Program-made: the position numbers and the translations under genes
Shown: positions 26,949-55,860 of the stretch, piece after piece
Numbering within the stretch: the first letter of the stretch is position 1
Layout of the letters: each line of letters starts with the position of its first letter
Notes under the pieces: model-generated
Databases searched by the model: none
What the model was told of the DNA's origin: nothing
Seen by the model: the letters and a program-made list of their open reading frames with translations, nothing else
Assembly (NCBI GenBank): GCA_001598975.1
Contig: BBXU01000533.1
Span: 1-64,000, forward strand
Direction: 5' to 3'
Length of the DNA stretch: 64,000 nucleotides
Source: Parachlorella kessleri
Taxonomy: Eukaryota; Chlorophyta; Trebouxiophyceae; Chlorellales; Chlorellaceae

Positions 26949-29900
26949 ATGCGAAAGAGGGTCCAGCCTGTATGGCATTTGCAGCTGGACAAGGTTCTGC
27001 TAATATTTTCTTTGGCGGTTTGCTGCCTAACAAAGCTGGTTGCTGCACAAAGCGGTGGGTACTGTGGGGAGTGCTGCGTGAGTGCTGAGAGGGCTCACTA
27101 AACGTGCAGTAAGCATAGCGAGTGTGTCCATGCAGGTAACCCAAGCTGCCCGACGGGCTTCCCAGCCGATGCCTCCTGCAATGTGTGCCACAGTGATTCA
27201 ATGTGTGCCAGCACCACAGGCAACGCGCAGGCTGTGTGTTACAATGCCCTGGCTTACTCGTCAACCTCACAGGTGCGCTGCGAGTGCAAGGCACACCCTG
27301 CCAGGCTGGGTACACCTGTGATGGCTTGCCAGTGCAGCCTCCACTCCCTTACCCTACCCATCTGACTCGTTACCTTGGGTAGTGCTCCTGGGGCTGCTGC
27401 AGGCCAAAGCCTACCAGTGCAACACCACAGACCCATCGGTGACCCAACTCGTGCCCAGCGTGACCATGTATTGCAAGACGGGGTTCCCGTCCTCTGTGGG
27501 GTCCTGCACACTCTCCCTCCTTGCCCTGGGCAACAACGTGGTCTGCACCACCGCTGGGTGCTCGCTGCGTGCCAACTCCTCCAACATAGTCTGCGAGAAG
27601 CCCACCTGCAAATGCGTGCCTGGGCCCTGCAACAACCGTAAGCGTGGGGACGGCGGTGCCTCTCCGTGTTGAAAAGTGACATCCATCCTTGTCTAGAGTG
27701 TGGAATGTGCTGTCGCCCTGGCATTGCAGAGCGCTTGTTGCCTGCCTTGGGCCGCCTTTGCAACTCCTAGCAGCTTGGTGCAGCATTTGGACCCCTGGGT
27801 GCGCTGCACTGGTAGCAAACTCAGGCGCAGCCTCTGCCAAGTTGTTTGTTGGGGGTGAGATGCAGTGTGCGTGTTGATAGGGCTATAGCCACCTTCCAAT
27901 ATGGACCCTCCCTTGGAATGCCCTTCTTGCAGCCACCATGGCCAGTATAGTGGAAGGGCCTTTCGGGGAGCTCACAATAACCTGCGATGCTGAAGGCTTA
28001 TGCACCATCAAGGCAGACGGCCTGCCGGCAGACAACGTCCAGATGCTGTGTGACGTTGGGGAGTGCCTCATACCTGGGACTGACAGCCAGGGTGACACTG
28101 CAGGTTGGTGTTAGGGGGGTGCTGGTCTTTGACAGCAGGATGAGAGGGGGAGGGTTCGCTGCTGCTTTAGGAAGAGTGACCACAGTGGGAGACCGCTTTG
28201 CATAGCAGAGGCAGGCCGTGAGGCGGGTTCACCGTTTGTGATGGTGCCCATGGGCAGGGTTTGGCAGTTCATAGTAATACCCGTTTGGGTGACAGCCGCA
28301 AGTGGGTGGGGTTCTGGGAAACAGGCCTGGCTGCAGCCTGTTTTCAGGAGTTTTCCGTATGACTGGCTTTTAAGCAACTGTGAGCTATTTGCCCTCTACT
28401 CCATATTTACTCACGGGCGTAGCTGAGCTGCATGCTTGCCATCGATGTGAAATGAACCGTCACACTGACCTGGGATTCCCAGGTCCCGTCCGCTTGTATG
28501 TATGTTCCGCAGTGAATCATACCGCTAATGCTGCCACCCTGATGGACTTCAAGGCCAGTTTTGAGAACGGCGACGAGGCCCTGCCAGACTGGAATGAGAC
28601 CACCTTCACCCCCTGCTCCTGGACCGGCGTCTGGTGCAATACAGAGGGCCGGGTGACCCGCATGTGAGTGGCAAGGGGGCGGAGCCGAGCTGCTTGGGAC
28701 CTCCCCGTGGTGTGCTCTGCTGCGCTGTGCTGAGCTCCCTGTCTTCTAGCCAGCCGTTTCTGCTGTTGCTTAGCTGGGCTTGGCTTGGCTCCTACCTCCG
28801 TAGGATGTGGGTGTGGTGGCCTTGGCTGTGCCAGGTGGCCTTGGCATGGCCAGTAACACCAATCATTGCAGAGTATCCCGCCTACAAGGCCCTGCAACGG
28901 TTTTTAGGCGGGCCGCCGCCTGAGATGTGCAATGCCTGCCATGGACTGGCTGCACCTCCCCAGCCAGCTCCCCAGACAGCCAGGGTGATAGTAGTAGTGC
29001 TTTCGGAGGACGTGACGGCAGTCACAGCGTGGGCGTCACACAAACCAAATTTCTCTGGACTGCAGAACCCTGCGAGGCAGCGGCCTAAGGGGAACCATCC
29101 CCCCTCAGGGCTGGCTCCTCCCGAATACTCTGACAGTCCTGTCGCTGACCAGCCAGCAACTGTACGGCACGCTGCCGCCCATCCTGCTGCCCCCCACGCT
29201 GCAGCAGCTGCTGCTGTCACAGAACCAGCTGACGGGGGCAATCCCCGGTGCCGAGTGGGAGCTGCCTGCTACACTTGAGTGGCTATGGCTGGACTATAAC
29301 CGCTTCTCAGGTCCGCAACGGAGGCCAACCCTGTGCCCAGCCAGTGCTGTCTCGTGGTGTGTGTGCGGTAGGGAGGCTGGCAAGTAGCAGCGGTACAGCT
29401 TGCAAGGAAGGCCCCTTATGCAGAGCAATCTAGTGCATGTAGAGGGTGAGGTGGATGTCAGACCCATATGCTGTTCAAAGAAGTATCCCCTATAAATGGT
29501 CTGCCAACCCTCCCATGATCAGGTAGGATGATGTGCATGCAAGTATCCCCATATTGCCTACCACCTCCTGTGCATACGCTCCAGCCGTCGCGTGTCAGTG
29601 CCTTCTGCAGGTACAATCGACCCCGGGTGGCGGCTCCCACCCAACCTCACAAACCTAGTGCTGGGGCAGAATCAGCTGACCGGCTCCTTGCCAGTAGGCT
29701 TACCCCTCCCGGACTCCCTGCAGCGGCTGTCTTTCTGGGTGAACCGATTCAATGGCTCCATACCTGGAGATTGGTCGCTGCCTTCTAGCTTGCAATATCT
29801 GGTGAGTGCAGCCGTACCTCCGGGCTGGGGTGTGTGACAGGGTGCTAGGAATTGTGTGCAAGGGGGATTACGGATGGAATCTCAACGGGAGATCGGCAGA

Positions 29901-32900
29901 GCACAAAGGTTGAAAGCTAGGTAAACCGTTCATCCATTGCGTATCCACGCATGAGCAGCAGCCTGATCCAACATGTGGTTGATGCTGGTCGTACGGGTGT
30001 GCAGGGCCTGGATAACAATTCCCTGACCGGCAGTTTGCCGCCAAACCTCAAGCTGCCACCTGGCGTGCAGCAAGTAAACCTCACAGGGAACTATTTGTCA
30101 GGTGTGTCGCAGCTTGGGGAAAGCAGGCAGAGCAGGCAAATTTGTTGGAAACTCAAAGGTCAAGTGAAAGGCCTTCGCCTCTGCTAAGCTTTGTGCTTGC
30201 ACAGCATCACCTGCTCACTTTTTGCAGCCAGTGTTTGAGTTGCCTGCAGGCCCCCTGCCTGGCTGGAGCCTGCCGGCAAATGCCAAAGTGCTGGGGGTTT
30301 ATATCCCTTTTTGTTGAATTGCCTGCAGGCCCCCTGCCTGGATGGAGCCTGCCGGCAAATGCTAAAGTGCTGGTGCTGCCCCAAAAGGGAGGGCCTGGCT
30401 TATGTGGCACGGTGAGGCACACGTGTCTGGAGGGCTTGCAGCACATGGCACTGGAGAGACGGCGCGCACACACTGTAGAGAATCGGTGGCAGAGTGCGCA
30501 CGTGTCGCGTGTTTGTAGGAGAAGTGCGGCTGCAGCTGTCGTCCTGTGGCCCTTTCAGGCTTGATGTTTTGGTACGTCTTGCAGGCCCCCAACCCTAACT
30601 ACTACTCTGCCGGCACCACTGAAGGCGACACTATGGTTAAAGACGACACCTTAGCGTCTTGCCAGGCGGAGGAGCCTGCAGCAGGAGGTAAGCTACTGAT
30701 ACTGATTTGTGCAGATGTTGGTCGCAGGCTTGGTGGTTGCTCTGTGTGCTTTCCGTAACTCTTAAAGTTGGTCATGGTTAGCCTTCACACAGATTAAGAC
30801 CCCCCCCAGCAGGATCGGCATGAACTGCCAATGCTGAAGCTTGTGCCGCTGGTGCTACCAGCGTTGCAGCTCGGTTTGTGCAACCTGCTCCTGGACAGGG
30901 TCGTTAGCTGCACCTGCTGCACCCTCTGCCGCTGCACCTGCTGCTGCACTGCAAGCATCGGCCCACGCTTGCTGGCGGTGGCATTGCCTACCTTGGAAGC
31001 TGGCGGACGGATGCCATGTCTTGGGTTATACGGCCATCGTACGAGCCCCTCCCGTGCCCATGTTTGGATCCCAGTCAATGTTGCAGTGGGAGGCAGCAGC
31101 ATCTCAGGTGCTGCCATTGGGGGCATTGTGGCCGGGGCTGTGGTACTAGGTGAGTGGCTTTTACCACTGCCAAGCCGTAGACTGTGAGCACAACACTACC
31201 CCGGTGTTTTTTGATGCGCTGTTTAGTGTCACTGGGCACCTGCCTTGAGTGCGTCCTTGGCAGCAGCAGTGCTTGCGGCCCGACCAGGTGGTGGAGCTTT
31301 CTCATATGCAATGCCCTTGGCTCGCTTTCCAGCGCTGTTGGCGCTTCACACGTGTCTAGCATGCTTGACCATGACTGCAGCAGCTGTTGCGGCCCTGGCA
31401 GCATGGGTGGCAGTCGCTAGACGCCGGCGGCGAGCCAAAATGCAGCAGAAGCCTTATGCTGATGACGGTCCTCAGGACTGGACAGCCAAGTCGGCAGGTT
31501 CGTGCATCGACTTTTACCTAGCGAGGGTGGATTGAACTGCCGATGCGCAGAGAACGGTGGCGGCTTACTTTGCAGTAGCTGTTGTGCACCCTCTCACGTG
31601 TGTCGCCTTGCCGGTGCGTCAACTAGCTACACAGCACCAACACACCAGCATGCGAGCAAGTTGACGACGCCGATTGCCAAGGCCGCGATACTTACCTCTG
31701 GTTAGACACATCACCTGGGACAGCAAGCTGACTGGACTCATTGAAGGGTTGTGTTAATGATCACAGGGACCCAGTCTGCAGCCACGCCCAGTCACAAGCT
31801 GGTGCAGCAGTTGAGCCGGGGTAGTGAAACCCGGCCGTGGCAGCCGTGGTCCACAACAAGACCTAGTCTGACAGAGGACAAGTGAGCCCCGGATTCAGGT
31901 TCACTGCCGCAGGGGCAAATGTGGCCAGCTGGCATGCCTTTACCTTGTTGAGACCCACATTGGGGCTTCTCGCTTTGCTTGTGCTGCTTCCTTGTGGTCG
32001 TATGAAGGTTGTTTGTTTGGCTTACCCCGCCCTACACGAGTGTCCGTGAGCAACTTGCAGGAGCCCATCTGGCTTTCCCTGACAGGTGTCATAGGAGTTG
32101 TGCCGATCATTAAGTGCTCCTCGTACTGCAGTTTGGAGAAGGGCGACGACCTTGAGGGCGAGCCGGCTGGGCTGGACATGGTGGGTAGCCACACAGCGAC
32201 AAGTAGTAGAGGCCTCGGTGGCAGCAGGTGAGGTTTCATGCCACCATCAGGCTGGCGTTGGCTAGGTGGGCGTTAAGGCTTAAGGCTTTCTCAACCGGTT
32301 GGGAATGCTGGATGGTGGGCCACCTGCCACCCACGACCAAACTTTACCCCATTTCCTGTGAGCCCGGGACTATGATTGCTACTTGTGACACTGGCATTGC
32401 ACTGGTGCACACTGGAAGTTTGAAGTCTGAAGCTCCGGGGCACCCCATAAGGTAATGTTTGGTTTGATTGTAGCCAAGTGTGTGATAGGATGCGGAACAA
32501 TGGTGGCCCTCCCCTGAATATCGCTAGCTTTCTATGTCTATGCTTCCCTGCCCTGCTCTTAAACTAGACTAGACCTGCCCTGTGTACACTGTGGTGCAGT
32601 CTGGGTGCGTCCCTGACTCTAGACACCCCCATCACTCCTGAGGCTGGGTCGTCAAACCCCTGGCAGTCAGCAGGTGTGTGTTTTGATGCTCTGGGGATGG
32701 GTGGCAGCACCTGGGATCTGAGGGCCAAGCCTAGGTCATGTTGATGTGCTGCTGGGGTGTGGCTTGGGCACTTCCTTCTCAGCATCTTTTGCATTCACTC
32801 ATAACATGCATGCGTCCTTCCCAGAGGCCTTCCTTTCACACACGGTCCCCTTCTGTCTGGAGAGGTGACCCAGTGCCGCTTGTGCAGTCGTAGCTGATAT

Positions 32901-35900
32901 ATATATTTGATGACTGCAAGCATGTGAATGGCAGTTTGCTTGTCTGCAGATAGCGGCGCCTCTGGGCTCCGGAAAGGGAGCTCCAACAACTATGGCATGG
33001 ACTTGAGGCTGTGGCAGATAGACTTCCGGGACCTAGAGCTCCAGAGGGAGATTGGCGAGGGCAGCTTTGGCAAGGTGGGTGCCCTAGTTCACAAGAACAC
33101 CTCCAAGTGTGTTCCAGGCAGGCGTGCCCCTCCACAGGGACTTGTTGCCTGGCTGTGATGGGCTGGTCAGGGCACTGTCACTCATCTAGCATCCATGGGA
33201 TGGGGTCGGACGTGCTAGCAGGCAGGGCTCGCTGTCCTGCACAGGCTGGGGGCCCCATGCAGTCCTGGCATGTTATGGCGTCAGTGGCCCGCTGATGGCG
33301 GTGGTGTTGGGGGTTGACAAAAGCCATCAAGCCAAAGTCGTGTCCCTTCCCTTCATTCCATGCCAAAACACAACTGCCTGCAGGTGTACCTGGGCTTGTG
33401 GCGGGACACACGGGTGGCTGTGAAGGTTCTGCGGAACAGCGGGCTGGAGAATATGCCGCTTGAGGAGGCGCGGGAGCAGGCACTGTCGCTGTCGAACCCC
33501 ATCCTGGCAAACTTGCAGAAGGCGAGGCCTGCAGCTTGCCTGCTTTGGATGTGTCTGCTTTCCACTTACTCTTCAGCCTAGGCATCCGCCTGTTTGCTGA
33601 CAGGTATGGGGGCTGATTTTTGTACCATTGTAGCTGGAGTTGCCTCTGCTGCTTCACACGCAGGGGTTTGTCGCCGGTGGTGGCACCGTGTGAGTCAGTC
33701 GCCCATGCGTTGCCAAGGTAGCCCGCATGCAGCAGCCTCATGAAAGGGTCTCTACTGGTTTGTGACCTTTGGCTCCACCGTGGCTGCTGCGCAGGAAAGC
33801 GCGGTGATGGCTCTCCTGCGGCACCCTAATGTGCTGTCCTTCTTGGGAGTGGTCCCCATGCCGCCCTGCGTTGTGACCGAGTACTGCCCCCGGGGGTCAT
33901 TGGCAGACATTCTCAGGGCGGCCAAGAGGAGCCCAGCGCTGGCGGCAAAGCTGGACTGGAGCCGGCGTCTGAGCATGGTAAGGATGGTGGAAGAAGCTGA
34001 CGCGCTGGGCTTGGAGGTTGCTGGCACGTGGGTTCGAGACACGAGGAGAAGACTCCCTGGCAGGGTAGTGTGGCTTGAGCAGGGCGGCCAAGGCTGATCA
34101 GTGCCACGTGCCCACCTGCCCGCCTGCCTGACTGCTGGATTGCTTGCTATACCTGCCACGGTTTGGTGCAGAGTCTCACTGGAGCGTTGCGGTCGATCAT
34201 GGTAGGGGTGCAGAACACACGCTTTCTCCCTATTGTAAGAGATGCTTTGCAATGAACACCTCCTGCCTTATCCGCAGATGCTTGACACAGCCAAGGGCTT
34301 GGTCTATTTGCACGGCCACAACCCGCCCATCATCCACCGTGACCTCAAGAGCCCTAACTTGTAAGTGGCGTCTCAATATTTTTTGGGTGCACATGCATCA
34401 TCCGTAATTCCAAGTGCGGCAGCTCCAAGCTTCTAAGATTTGGACATTTGATTTTTGGAACAGTTTTGCTTAAGCATGCTCAGTCCATGTATGGCTCATG
34501 GGGGCAAAAATTGTGTGTGTCCTGCTAGCGCTTGCGTTCTGGAGTGCCTTGTAGGCACACCAGGCAACAGCTTGCCTGCTGCCATTCGAAATCGAGCGAC
34601 GGTAGCAGTTTGTGAGCTCCATGCCGGGTAGCAAGCATTCTTTGCCTCGGTGGTGTGACATGGCAGCATTGTGTGCCCGCCGACACAAGCGCAGTGGTGT
34701 GGGGAAGCGGCCTAGGTGGGTGCGCTGGTTGTGTGCAGGCTCCTTGATGCATCCTGGCACGTCAAGGTGTCAGACTTCAACTTGAGCAGGTGCGCCCTGT
34801 GCAATACACAGCCAGTACAGGCAGTACAGTCTGGCATGCGCATCCTTCCCTGTCAGTCCCACTGCGATCATGGTGTGTGCTGGCAAAGCATCTTAGCATG
34901 GAATGTGCACGGTGTGGCAACTGGTGGCCATGGTCCCCGCCAAGGGCCGCCTAAGGCAGCTTAATGATCGCTACATTGTTCGACCCCTGTAGTGTTTGAG
35001 ATGCACCCACCCTCTTATGCAGGGTGCTGGAAGAGTCCACCATCCATAGCAGCGTCACAGTCAACAACCCCCGCTGGCTTGCCCCGGAAGGTGACCCTTC
35101 AACGCTGATATGCTTTTCATTATCCAAAATATGGCTGCCCAGAGGTCCCCTTGCCCATGGTGATATAGTTCTCTAGCGATGTCATCTATGTTATCCATCC
35201 TATTCCGCCCTCCTGGCCCTCCCTGGCTGGGTATGATCCGCTGGCTCATGTGTAATGTTCTTGAAGCTTGATGTCAGCGCCAGGCAAGTGCAAGCAGGCC
35301 TGAATAGCTAACCATCCCGGAGTGTTTGTGAGAGTCCCGCATGCTGCTTGCAGTGATGGATGGCAACTCGGCCACCCTGCAGTCGGACGTGTTCTCTTTT
35401 GGGGTGGTGATGTGGGAGCTACTTACTTGGGAGATGCCGTTCACCTCGGAAAACCACTGGCAGGTGGGTGATGGCAGTAGCCTGCCCGCATGCAGTGACC
35501 TGAAAGCTAGGCTTCCTACTAATGTAAAACGGGATATGGAATTTTCAGGTCTGCTGTCCCATGGCTGGCTAGCACAGCCACCCGTTGTTGCTATGTTGTG
35601 CTTACACCAGGCGCAAACCTAACATGCTTCCCCTGTTGGTATCGGGTTGGCAATATTGAAAGCTGGAAAGTGGGCAGCGCCTTCGTATGTACACACAAAT
35701 CATGGGGTCGGGATAGCTAATACTACAGCCGGGGCTGCCTTGCTGGGACATGTCAACCACTGTGGCGGTGGAAGCTCTCACCGTCCTGCCATGCCTTGTA
35801 CAGGTGGTGAAATTCGTAACCAGTGGTGGGCGGCTGCCTATTCCTAGTCCGGAGTCACTACCGGGGCCCCCGTGCAGTTCGTTTGACACCTTGCAGCAGT

Positions 35901-36405
35901 ACATTGCCCTCCTGAACAAGTGCTGGGCCCATGACCCGGCTGAGCGGCCATGCTTTGTGGAGATTAGTGAGAGCTTGAGGTGAGCCTTACGTCATCGCGC
36001 CCGAGCCGCATGGCAAGGTGTTGTTACAACTGAAGATCTGGTCAGCCGAAACAGCCATGAGGCACATGTGCACCTTGCCCGGTGGAAAGCAGGCATTCAA
36101 GAAACAGGGCGGCTAGCCATTCCCAACCAGCGGCCCGCCTGGGTGCAGCCGTGAAATGCTGCTCCTGTGCTTGAAACTCCCTGTTCGGCATATGTGGGCT
36201 GTGCTCAGACCGCAACGTGCTCTGCCTGAGCGTGTACACAGCATGCTCACACAGCTGCCATAGAGATCAAGTTAACTAAGACACGCCACGGCCAAAGTTG
36301 TCATTGAGGGCTTTCTACTGCAGGGGCTTGCTGGGACGCGTTCCCCGCTCACGCTCTGGAATGGCACAACAAGAGGAGAGCCATGCGGGGGCAGAGAGAA
36401 TCTGA
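26949..36405 (+). CDS. Leucine-rich-repeat receptor-like protein kinase
   Basis: About 25 exons in phase, near 1,036 residues. Exons: 26949-27054, 27136-27272, 27403-27637, 27933-28103, 28513-28663, 29066-29310, 29611-29801, 30005-30101, 30329-30411, 30585-30687, about 30899-31024, 31087-31149, 31381-31497, 31782-31881, 32132-32227, 32600-32673, 32950-33074, 33384-33521, 33795-33977, 34278-34360, 34739-34789, 35023-35090, 35354-35463, 35804-35979, 36324-36405. Order: signal peptide (VLLIFSLAVCCLTKLVAA); Cys-rich modules (about 36-216); LRR cap with PCSWTGVWC; about seven plant-type LRRs (LxGxLP/IP) to residue 470; Ala/Pro linker; membrane helix split by an intron, then RRRRR; kinase (about 705-1010) with GEGSFGK, VAVKVL, HRDLKSPN, DFN instead of DFG, WLAPE, SDVFSFGVVMWE. 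The kinase resembles TKL/RAF types. The Pro/Ala exon borders are uncertain. The ligand is unknown. Confidence 0.88.
30237..30373 (+). repeat. Duplicated LRR exon fragment with its splice acceptor
   Basis: 30237-30294 and 30316-30373 are nearly identical, each with TTGCCTGCAG followed by the sequence for GPLPGWSLPANAKVL. Only copy 2 continues into an open frame and a normal donor (30411); copy 1 runs into a stop and lacks a good donor, so it is a pseudo-exon inside the intron. Confidence 0.8.
33522..33794 (+). other. GC-AG intron in the receptor kinase gene
   Basis: The exon encoding the kinase N-lobe ends phase 0 at AAG|GCGAGG, and the next exon (GAA AGC GCG, ESAVMALLRHPNV) starts phase 0 at 33795. 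No GT donor maintains the kinase frame here. Confidence 0.65.
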
Positions 36406-54239: not shown

Positions 54240-55860
54240 CTATTTGGGTTCCTCGGCACCTAAATCTTCCAACCCAGAACCTGCGGCACCAGCCACCCTG
54301 CAGCCACCCCCAACCTCTGCTTTACTACAGATACAGTGCCAAAACTGAGGGGCAAAACCAATGCCAATATACCCAACCACGGCAGCACAAATGCTCCTTG
54401 CAACTTGAGAAGATAGCTTGGTGAAAGACTGGCACAAGGTGAAGTCTACAGGAAGGCCGTCCCCGCTGCTAGCTTGGAAGTACCCGGAGGGCAGCTCGGT
54501 AGCGTCCCTAGCTATCTCAGCATAACGAGCTAGTTTTGGCGTCTGCATGCCTAGTTCTAGAGCGGTGTACTGCACAAGGGGGATGGGAGAGAAGTCCCCG
54601 CCTCGCTCCCACGGTGCATAGTACCGCAGCCTATGGGAAGCCGTGCGGTTAAGGGCCGCCCCAAAAATGGCCCAAGCCGCCTTGTACGCAGAGCGGCGCA
54701 GCACAAAGCCGGCATGCCACCCACGCAGCTGCGTCCCTCTTAAGTGCTCAGCTAACAGTTGGCCAGCATTGTAGTACACCCAGCGCCAGGCCTCGGGCTC
54801 AAAGTCTGTCGGCGGCGGCTCAGAGTATATTCTCTGCCAGTGGGGGCTGCTAGAGAGGAACACGTTGGACATGCCAGGCTGCTCAGCAAAGAATCTCTCC
54901 CTGGGGAACGGACGGGACAACCACATATCGTCATTCAGGTACAAAAAGTGCTCCTGCAAGCCTGGGATGCGGTGCAGGAACATCTCAATGACCATGGTAT
55001 TAAAGGTGGGCAGAAACTCCCCAGGGATGAAGCGGCTATGGTCAACTACCTCCACCTTCCCCTGCAGCTCTTGAGACAGCAAGCCCAGCCTGCTTAGCTG
55101 CTGTCCCATCGTGACCACATAAATCCTGCGCACCCAGGGTGCGTATCGGTGTATGGCCGCAAGACACAAGTACACCTCTCCCCTATCAGGCAGCGCCCCC
55201 TTGGGGTACCTAGTGGCGCTATAGTACTTCACCAACTCTTGTCGCCAGAGGGGGTCCGAGGCATTCACCCAAGTCACGACCGCATCGATGGCAGTGTCCG
55301 CATGCCAGGGCCTGGCGGCTTGCTCCTGCAGTAAGGATAGCCACAGCCCAGCTCAGAGGGCAGTCTAGCATCTGCTGCGCCAGCAGTGGGGACGTGTTAC
55401 AGTGAGCTCAGGTGTCTGTAAAGTTGGGTCATTCCCAGCTTTGACGTTTGACTGACCTTAGGTTTGAACTAACTGCGCCCTCATGTCAGGGCAGCTTAGC
55501 AAAGCAAGTTTCCTAGCTCAGGGTTCAGTCCATGGGAGGCTGTGTAACTGAACTGGTTTGCAATTGTGACAGCTGATAACCTGGGCAGAGCCTCGGGTGG
55601 GTCCACACTAGCTACAGCTGTACGCAAACCGTTACCTGGACGTCAAGCTGCACCCTCAAACCAGTCCTGGCGACTCCACAGCCAAGGTTGCTGATCGCCT
55701 TGCTCCGATTAGCTGGGGTAGCCGCCAGTCCCGGCCCCTTGAGCGCGAGTGTCCCTAGTGCACAAGGTCTCCCTGGGTGAAGCCATGATAACCGTAGCCC
55801 AGTCAGGAACAAGGCTAGCAGGCACGCTGCAGTAATGCTAGCCGTGCGCCAGTTGCACAT
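54240..55860 (-). CDS. Stealth-family sugar-phosphate transferase (GNPTAB-like), type II membrane protein
   Basis: Two exons, 55636-55860 and 54240-55325, close in phase; 436 residues. Stealth proteins, including animal GlcNAc-1-phosphotransferase and bacterial capsule enzymes, transfer sugar phosphates. The N terminus MCNWRTASITAACLLALFLT is a cytosolic stub plus membrane helix, giving a Golgi-type luminal enzyme. Conserved regions in order: CR1 DAVVTWVNASDPLW; RIYVVTMGQQ; CR2 VVDHSRFIPGEFLPTFNTMV, IEMFLHRIPGLQEHFLYLND and DDMWLSRPF; CR3-like GWHAGFVLRRSAYKAAW. The C-terminal tail after residue 380 (CAAVVGYIGIGFAPQFWHC) is hydrophobic and not typical of the family; it may be read-through of an unrecognised intron. 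The exon is unusually long (1,086 bases) for this region. The substrate in algae is unknown. Confidence 0.88.

Follow-up and report, generated by a model that had tools for sequence, protein, structure and literature searches.

A predicted LRR receptor kinase gene of Parachlorella kessleri and its relatives on a DFN-marked algal TKL clade

Known LRR receptor kinases and the Parachlorella gene

Chlorella variabilis was one of six green algae studied by Dievart et al. (2011, PMC3268121) and, in the parts of that paper covered here, has five LRR-TM-kinase genes, for which an independent origin was favored without the placement of the kinase being resolved. The LRR-TM-kinase architecture is thus already known in green algae, and these five genes contradict a preliminary description of the locus reported here, according to which most chlorophytes are described as having LRR proteins and kinases apart. 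In the portions covered, a 2026 survey places LRR-RLKs in 'Algae' and leaves green algae unnamed (PMC13091385), and the table of a 2024 review gives one to four RLKs per listed chlorophyte (PMC10868138). The open-access literature, covered mainly as titles and abstract openings, yielded no account of green-algal receptor kinases that form a family of the DFN type.

The present gene lies in a 64,000-nucleotide stretch of Parachlorella kessleri DNA (the window), which is contig C320 of a 50.9-Mb assembly of 1642 contigs. Like the C. variabilis receptors, as the covered parts describe them (PMC3268121), it comes from the order Chlorellales, has the LRR-TM-kinase domain order and carries a kinase of a lineage-specific clade. 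By the same description it is set apart from them by at least 16 candidates in this genome versus five genes, and by DFN in the kinase, a Cys-rich N-terminal region and relatives with LysM and F5/8C domains. The size of the family, the DFN signature, the occurrence of LysM and F5/8C ectodomains within this kinase clade and the Cys-rich module seem to be new. With the RLK/Pelle LRR-RLKs of land plants (FLS2, PEPR1, BRI1) the predicted protein shares a signal peptide, an LRRNT_2 cap, LxGxIP LRRs, one helix and a cytoplasmic kinase; however, its kinase falls outside RLK/Pelle, has DFN instead of DFG, and reads NPRWLAPE where BRI1 has GTPGYVPPEY. The Raf-like kinases CTR1 and EDR1 are similar in providing the best solved match and in the motifs HRDLKSPNLL and W[ML]APE. 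Their clade, chlorophyte members included, has DFG, whereas the window kinase has DFN, lies outside that clade and belongs to a predicted membrane receptor in which a Pfam search found no EDR1 domain.

We consider it probable, at roughly 0.8, that the gene encodes a cell-surface LRR receptor kinase of an expanded Chlorellales family on a DFN-marked algal TKL clade, signaling by the following mechanism. The Cys-rich and LRR ectodomain would lie outside the cell, one helix would span the membrane and the TKL kinase would lie inside. The gene model, the domains, the signals of membrane topology, the family and the kinase clade are visible in the sequence itself. We infer that the gene is expressed and its kinase active and, by analogy with plant LRR-RLKs, that the ectodomain would bind an external ligand (a peptide, glycan or surface molecule), after which receptors would pair and their kinases would cross-phosphorylate and act on a downstream cascade, perhaps a MAP-kinase-like one because of the resemblance to CTR1. 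In a single alga, at least 16 candidate LRR receptor kinases whose kinase is not of the RLK type would allow a test, in parallel, of the features that surface-receptor signaling needs, including LRR caps, juxtamembrane region and kinase type, and would supply, outside streptophytes, sensor candidates for symbiosis, mating or contact with microbes.

Gene model, protein domains and the question of one gene or two

The gene occupies 26949..36405 of the forward strand, from an ATG at 26949 to a TGA at 36403-36405, and comprises 24 exons with 3000 nt of coding sequence for a 999-aa protein. Both end points agree exactly with the preliminary description, which had counted 25 exons. Splice sites were chosen by eye from the sequence and the model was then checked by script. 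All 23 junctions of this hand-built model are in phase; intron borders are GT-AG in 22 cases and GC-AG in intron 17 (donor at 33522). Because the splice sites were picked by the authors, phase agreement alone is weak and non-independent proof.

Exon 1 (26949..27054) carries the start codon and a hydrophobic stretch at residues ~15-34 (hydropathy 2.13 over 19 residues); by hydropathy alone, residues 1-34 were judged signal-peptide-like. A Cys-rich extracellular region with 18 cysteines (residues ~36-216), to which exons on contig C527 are related, is encoded by exons 2-4 and their introns (27136..28103), and the N-terminal LRR cap, LRRNT_2, at residues 224-259 by exon 5 (28513..28663; Pfam PF08263, 4.8e-9). 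Exons 6-9 with their introns (29066..30411) encode eight LxGxIP-type LRRs, counted by eye, each of 23-24 residues and reaching residue ~455, and a C-terminal cap ending LPQKGGPGLCGT (Pfam LRR_1 at 1.5e-11, LRR_4 and LRR_8). After an extracellular juxtamembrane stretch in exon 10 (30585..30687), which by Pfam is without a known domain, the protein has one membrane-helix peak at residues ~512-540 (maximum hydropathy 2.53 at residues 520-538), split by an intron between exons 11 and 12 (31087..31497) and followed by RRRRR. A cytoplasmic linker with zero Pfam matches (exons 13-15; 31767..32673) leads to the TKL kinase domain at residues 690-972 (exons 16-23; 32950..35979), which matches PK_Tyr_Ser-Thr (PF07714) at 3.6e-54 and contains VAVK, HRDLKSPN, DFN and WLAPE. 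Exon 24 (36324..36405) holds the C-terminal tail and the stop codon. All of these features are on the forward strand, and the spliced model combines a predicted signal peptide, an LRR ectodomain, one helix and a cytoplasmic kinase, as in LRR receptor kinases.

The LRRNT_2 cap and LxGxIP repeats are those of plant LRR-RLK ectodomains, and the best PDB matches of the ectodomain, taken from LRRNT_2 to the last cap, are the plant LRR-RLKs FLS2, At4g26540, GSO1 and PEPR1. Thirteen of 34 LRR rows, two of seven F5/8C rows and one of 60 other algal rows contain the C-cap pattern PQ..CG. It occurred in none of six plant rows; a similar LCG is present in three of these. Within intron 8, a near-copy of the start of exon 9 (30250..30294, forward strand; 43 of 45 bases alike) is preceded, like exon 9 itself, by an identical run of 10 bases and an AG acceptor, and its reading frame, read by eye, hits a stop. 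The copy is a small tandem duplication and could serve as an alternative exon but for the stop.

LRRs and kinase occur together within single proteins of algal relatives. In 27 of 34 algal LRR-labelled relatives, a helix with three or more basic residues after it lies ahead of the kinase, and seven lack such a helix, by a rule that leaves the position relative to the LRRs unchecked (the helix of P0011 lies far N-terminal). P0027 and P0028, which have LRRs, F5/8C, helix and kinase, would take up most of the contigs on which they lie (90% and 88%), with little space for introns. P0012 aligns with the window protein from the LRR cap to the kinase end, at 57% identity in the kinase and weakly, at 26%, in the LRR part. 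Seventeen loci were fetched from the P. kessleri genome, 16 picked for having both LRR and kinase matches and one, on C527, for its Cys-rich matches; the latter has neither LRR nor kinase matches. In 14 of these 17 loci, kinase exons come after LRR exons on a common strand, two further loci have a gap of more than 7 kb, and opposite-strand LRR or kinase matches at E <0.01 numbered zero across all 17. A scan of the unspliced gap for a membrane helix with basic residues, which misses intron-split helices, gave candidates at six of the 16 kinase-bearing loci (C597b, C1460, C1145, C716, C592 and C308) and at none of 16 antisense controls.

This recurrence of the domain order, at related loci and in single proteins of relatives, argues against two adjacent genes wrongly joined, namely an LRR protein, secreted or membrane-bound, next to an independent TKL kinase, as does the position of the helix and basic stop-transfer, in phase between LRRs and kinase. 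We regard such a pair as very unlikely, even though the gene at 26949..36405 is known as a spliced sequence model, its linker exons are without a known domain and a full-length orthologue is absent among the best 120 of 2420 relatives. Pfam, hydropathy and relatives bear out the one gene of the preliminary description, with signal-peptide-like start, LRR cap, LxGxIP repeats, one helix, basic stop-transfer and kinase, and on these sequence grounds the single LRR receptor kinase gene is confirmed as a real feature.

Kinase placement, origin of the fusion and the DFN signature

The best solved match of the window kinase is CTR1 (3ppz, 4e-54), and no plant RLK is among the best 60 of 2547 distinct solved-chain sequences. 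For a first tree of 114 rows, 117 of the 120 listed relatives matched the kinase query and 110 entered. Manual exclusion removed P0029, P0041, P0072, P0081, P0085 and P0101, for the most part because their matches were partial or interrupted (that of P0101 is nearly complete), and also P0116, a plant RLK. A second tree of 57 rows contains 34 chosen algal rows and the window kinase. Rows without a named source were counted as algal by tree position, and LRR labels were taken from Pfam, by which weak LRRs may be missed.

In the 57-row tree, RLK/Pelle (7 rows) was recovered at 100/100, CTR1/EDR1 (12 rows) at 99/96 and the algal set (35 rows) at 97/98. At 99/94, the window kinase joins the LRR kinases of Parachlorella and falls outside both the RLK/Pelle and the CTR1/EDR1 clades, which upholds the earlier view that it is not a plant RLK/Pelle kinase. 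Because Scenedesmus, Micromonas and Chlamydomonas leiostraca have CTR1-like kinases that are placed within CTR1/EDR1, the algal set is distinct from that clade. In AU tests, holding the algal clade together with RLK/Pelle was not rejected (p 0.184, and 0.359 after two long rows were dropped), nor was its union with CTR1/EDR1 (p 0.499 and 0.445, respectively). Placing the window kinase by itself in RLK/Pelle was weakly disfavored (p 0.07). The 20 LRR-labelled rows were rejected as a clade of their own (p 6.75e-10) and as a clade with RLK/Pelle that omits the other algal kinases (p 4.9e-8). The LRR label changes 16 times in the 114-row tree, at least 12 of these forced by well-supported branches. 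These changes and the rejected LRR-only clade point to LRRs having been repeatedly gained, lost or swapped on the algal kinase clade.

The kinase had also been called TKL/RAF-like. The TKL part stands, with CTR1 as the most similar solved chain, but the kinase belongs to an algal clade of its own whose pairing with RLK/Pelle is permitted by the AU test, and a Raf affiliation, like any deepest branching of this clade among TKL kinases, is tentative. A comparison of CTR1 and RLK profile scores was discarded: all 35 algal kinases prefer CTR1, but DLK, EGFR and an Acanthamoeba kinase do so as well, and the comparison is therefore not diagnostic.

Because the closest resemblance of the ectodomain is to plant LRR-RLKs and that of the kinase to CTR1, we favor a separate fusion of the two, which the preliminary description had proposed and which appears probable. 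A deep homologue of plant LRR-RLKs, in which an LRR-RLK of the green-plant ancestor kept its ectodomain while the kinase diverged in algae and LRRs were lost many times, is possible but doubtful. It would account for the plant-like LRRNT_2 cap, LxGxIP repeats and LCG-type C-cap and is permitted by the pairing of the algal clade with RLK/Pelle, but it sits poorly with the rejection of LRR-labelled rows plus RLK/Pelle as a sole clade, with an RLK/Pelle clade at 100/100 that holds no algal LRR rows, and with a kinase that among solved chains is nearer to CTR1. Far less credible still is a plant gene acquired by transfer or by contamination of the assembly. The plant-type ectodomain, and the weakness with which the AU test disfavors moving the window kinase to RLK/Pelle, could be read that way; against it stand the many introns, a set of 23 kinase relatives, 16 having LRRNT_2, whose genes are spread over many contigs of this genome, the grouping of the kinase with Parachlorella, and identities of up to 100% between other loci of the genome and proteins of P. 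kessleri. Beyond the separate fusion, it is an even bet that Chlorellales separately built a receptor-kinase superfamily on the DFN-type TKL clade, swapping LRR, LysM/PAN, F5/8C and ABCG-related Cys-rich ectodomains, and that RLK surveys centered on RLK/Pelle have largely missed it.

DFN was read in 93 of 101 algal-clade rows, DFG in two and DLN in one, with five unread by pattern; P0114, which has a very long branch and was counted as 'other algal' in the first tree, is excluded from these counts. DFG was read in 11 of 12 CTR1/EDR1 rows, the twelfth being unread by pattern. An LSNP-type insert ahead of the alpha-C helix is present in the window kinase and in 33 of the 101 algal rows. In the window kinase, Asn replaces the glycine of DFG, which could mean weak or absent activity. 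A receptor pseudokinase, which would signal noncatalytically as a scaffold or co-receptor, would fit this replacement and its prevalence in the clade; we nevertheless consider it quite unlikely, as the VAVK lysine, the alpha-C glutamate and the aspartates of HRD and DFN are all present in the window protein, as read by eye.

Relatives, the genomic family and the Cys-rich module

The best 120 of 2420 relatives include 11 P. kessleri LRR-kinase proteins. Within the same 120, named LRR-labelled members of the algal clade come from Parachlorella, Micractinium, Chlorella, Prototheca, Auxenochlorella and Nannochloris, all Chlorellales, five of these genera being additional to Parachlorella. Named kinases of the clade without an LRR label come from Trebouxia, Coccomyxa, Elliptochloris, Myrmecia and Apatococcus (again among the best 120 of 2420). 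An orthologue of exactly this gene was not among these 120, the highest kinase identity being 61% in a search restricted to protein lengths of about 549-1748 aa; split or absent annotation, or a strain difference, could explain this. Four P. kessleri proteins of the N2152v2 annotation (P0001, P0004, P0005 and P0008) share the subclade of the window kinase at a support of 99, and P0001, P0004 and P0008 are those that also group with it at 99/94 in the 57-row tree. All four resemble the window protein in DFN, the LSNP-type insert and an LRR ectodomain, with kinase identities of 60-61% at best, but P0001, P0004 and P0005 are without the Cys-rich N-terminal region and P0008 begins within the LRRs.

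In the genome itself, LRRNT_2 matches number 40; a kinase exon lies within 12 kb downstream on the same strand of 16 of them, upstream on the same strand of five and on the opposite strand of one. The window kinase as a query gave 135 exon matches, which were assembled into 23 kinase genes (each with at least three exons or 120 residues). LRRNT_2 lies upstream on the same strand without an intervening kinase in 16 of the 23, and seven have no upstream LRRNT_2. An opposite-strand LRRNT_2 within 11 kb was found at none of the 23, and in four LRRNT_2 lies downstream, where the next gene may begin. The kinase counts are lower bounds, because the searches score just the best candidates. C597:6972-32760 holds a tandem array of three such kinase genes, two of which have an upstream LRRNT_2 exon.

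The best pieces of P. kessleri proteins P0003, P0006, P0007 and P0029 match genome loci at 81, 87, 96-100 and 100%, respectively. P0029 maps along C592 at 89-100% (pieces above 85% were kept), with residues 97-407 outside the kept pieces. The matching gene lies at C592:6836-17885, with a LysM exon on the same strand at C592:17311-17412, and the Pfam domains of P0029 include LysM, PF14295 (which we take to be PAN), LRRNT_2 and a partial kinase. This gene is likely a LysM-LRR receptor kinase outside streptophytes. A run of LysM exons on one strand at C1380:51021-56323 accounts for five of the 13 LysM matches of the genome. F5/8C (presumably PF00754) has one match in the genome, barely above the cut-off: at C247:30272-31521, an LRRNT_2 exon is followed 1 kb on by the F5/8C match on the same strand, in an order resembling that of Micractinium LRR and F5/8C receptors.

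The Cys-rich region (residues ~36-216) has zero Pfam and zero PDB matches, and residues 36-222, compared with a large protein set, gave 5575 word-sharing candidates, none at E <=0.1. It matches C527 in three collinear pieces at 43, 31 and 37% identity, two of which were also found genome-wide (1e-7 and 1.6e-6). On the reverse strand of C527:1-6500, a hydrophobic stretch, seen by eye, and ABC_tran-scoring exons lie downstream of the Cys-rich matches and on the same strand as these. We infer that the C527 exons form one ABCG-type gene; receptor and transporter may share an extracellular module, and the Cys-rich region may resemble the N-terminal ectodomains of plant transporters of the ABCG24/28 type. 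Elsewhere in the window, 54240-55349 of the reverse strand encodes a Stealth protein, in which CR1 and CR2 score above the cut-off and CR3 just below it.
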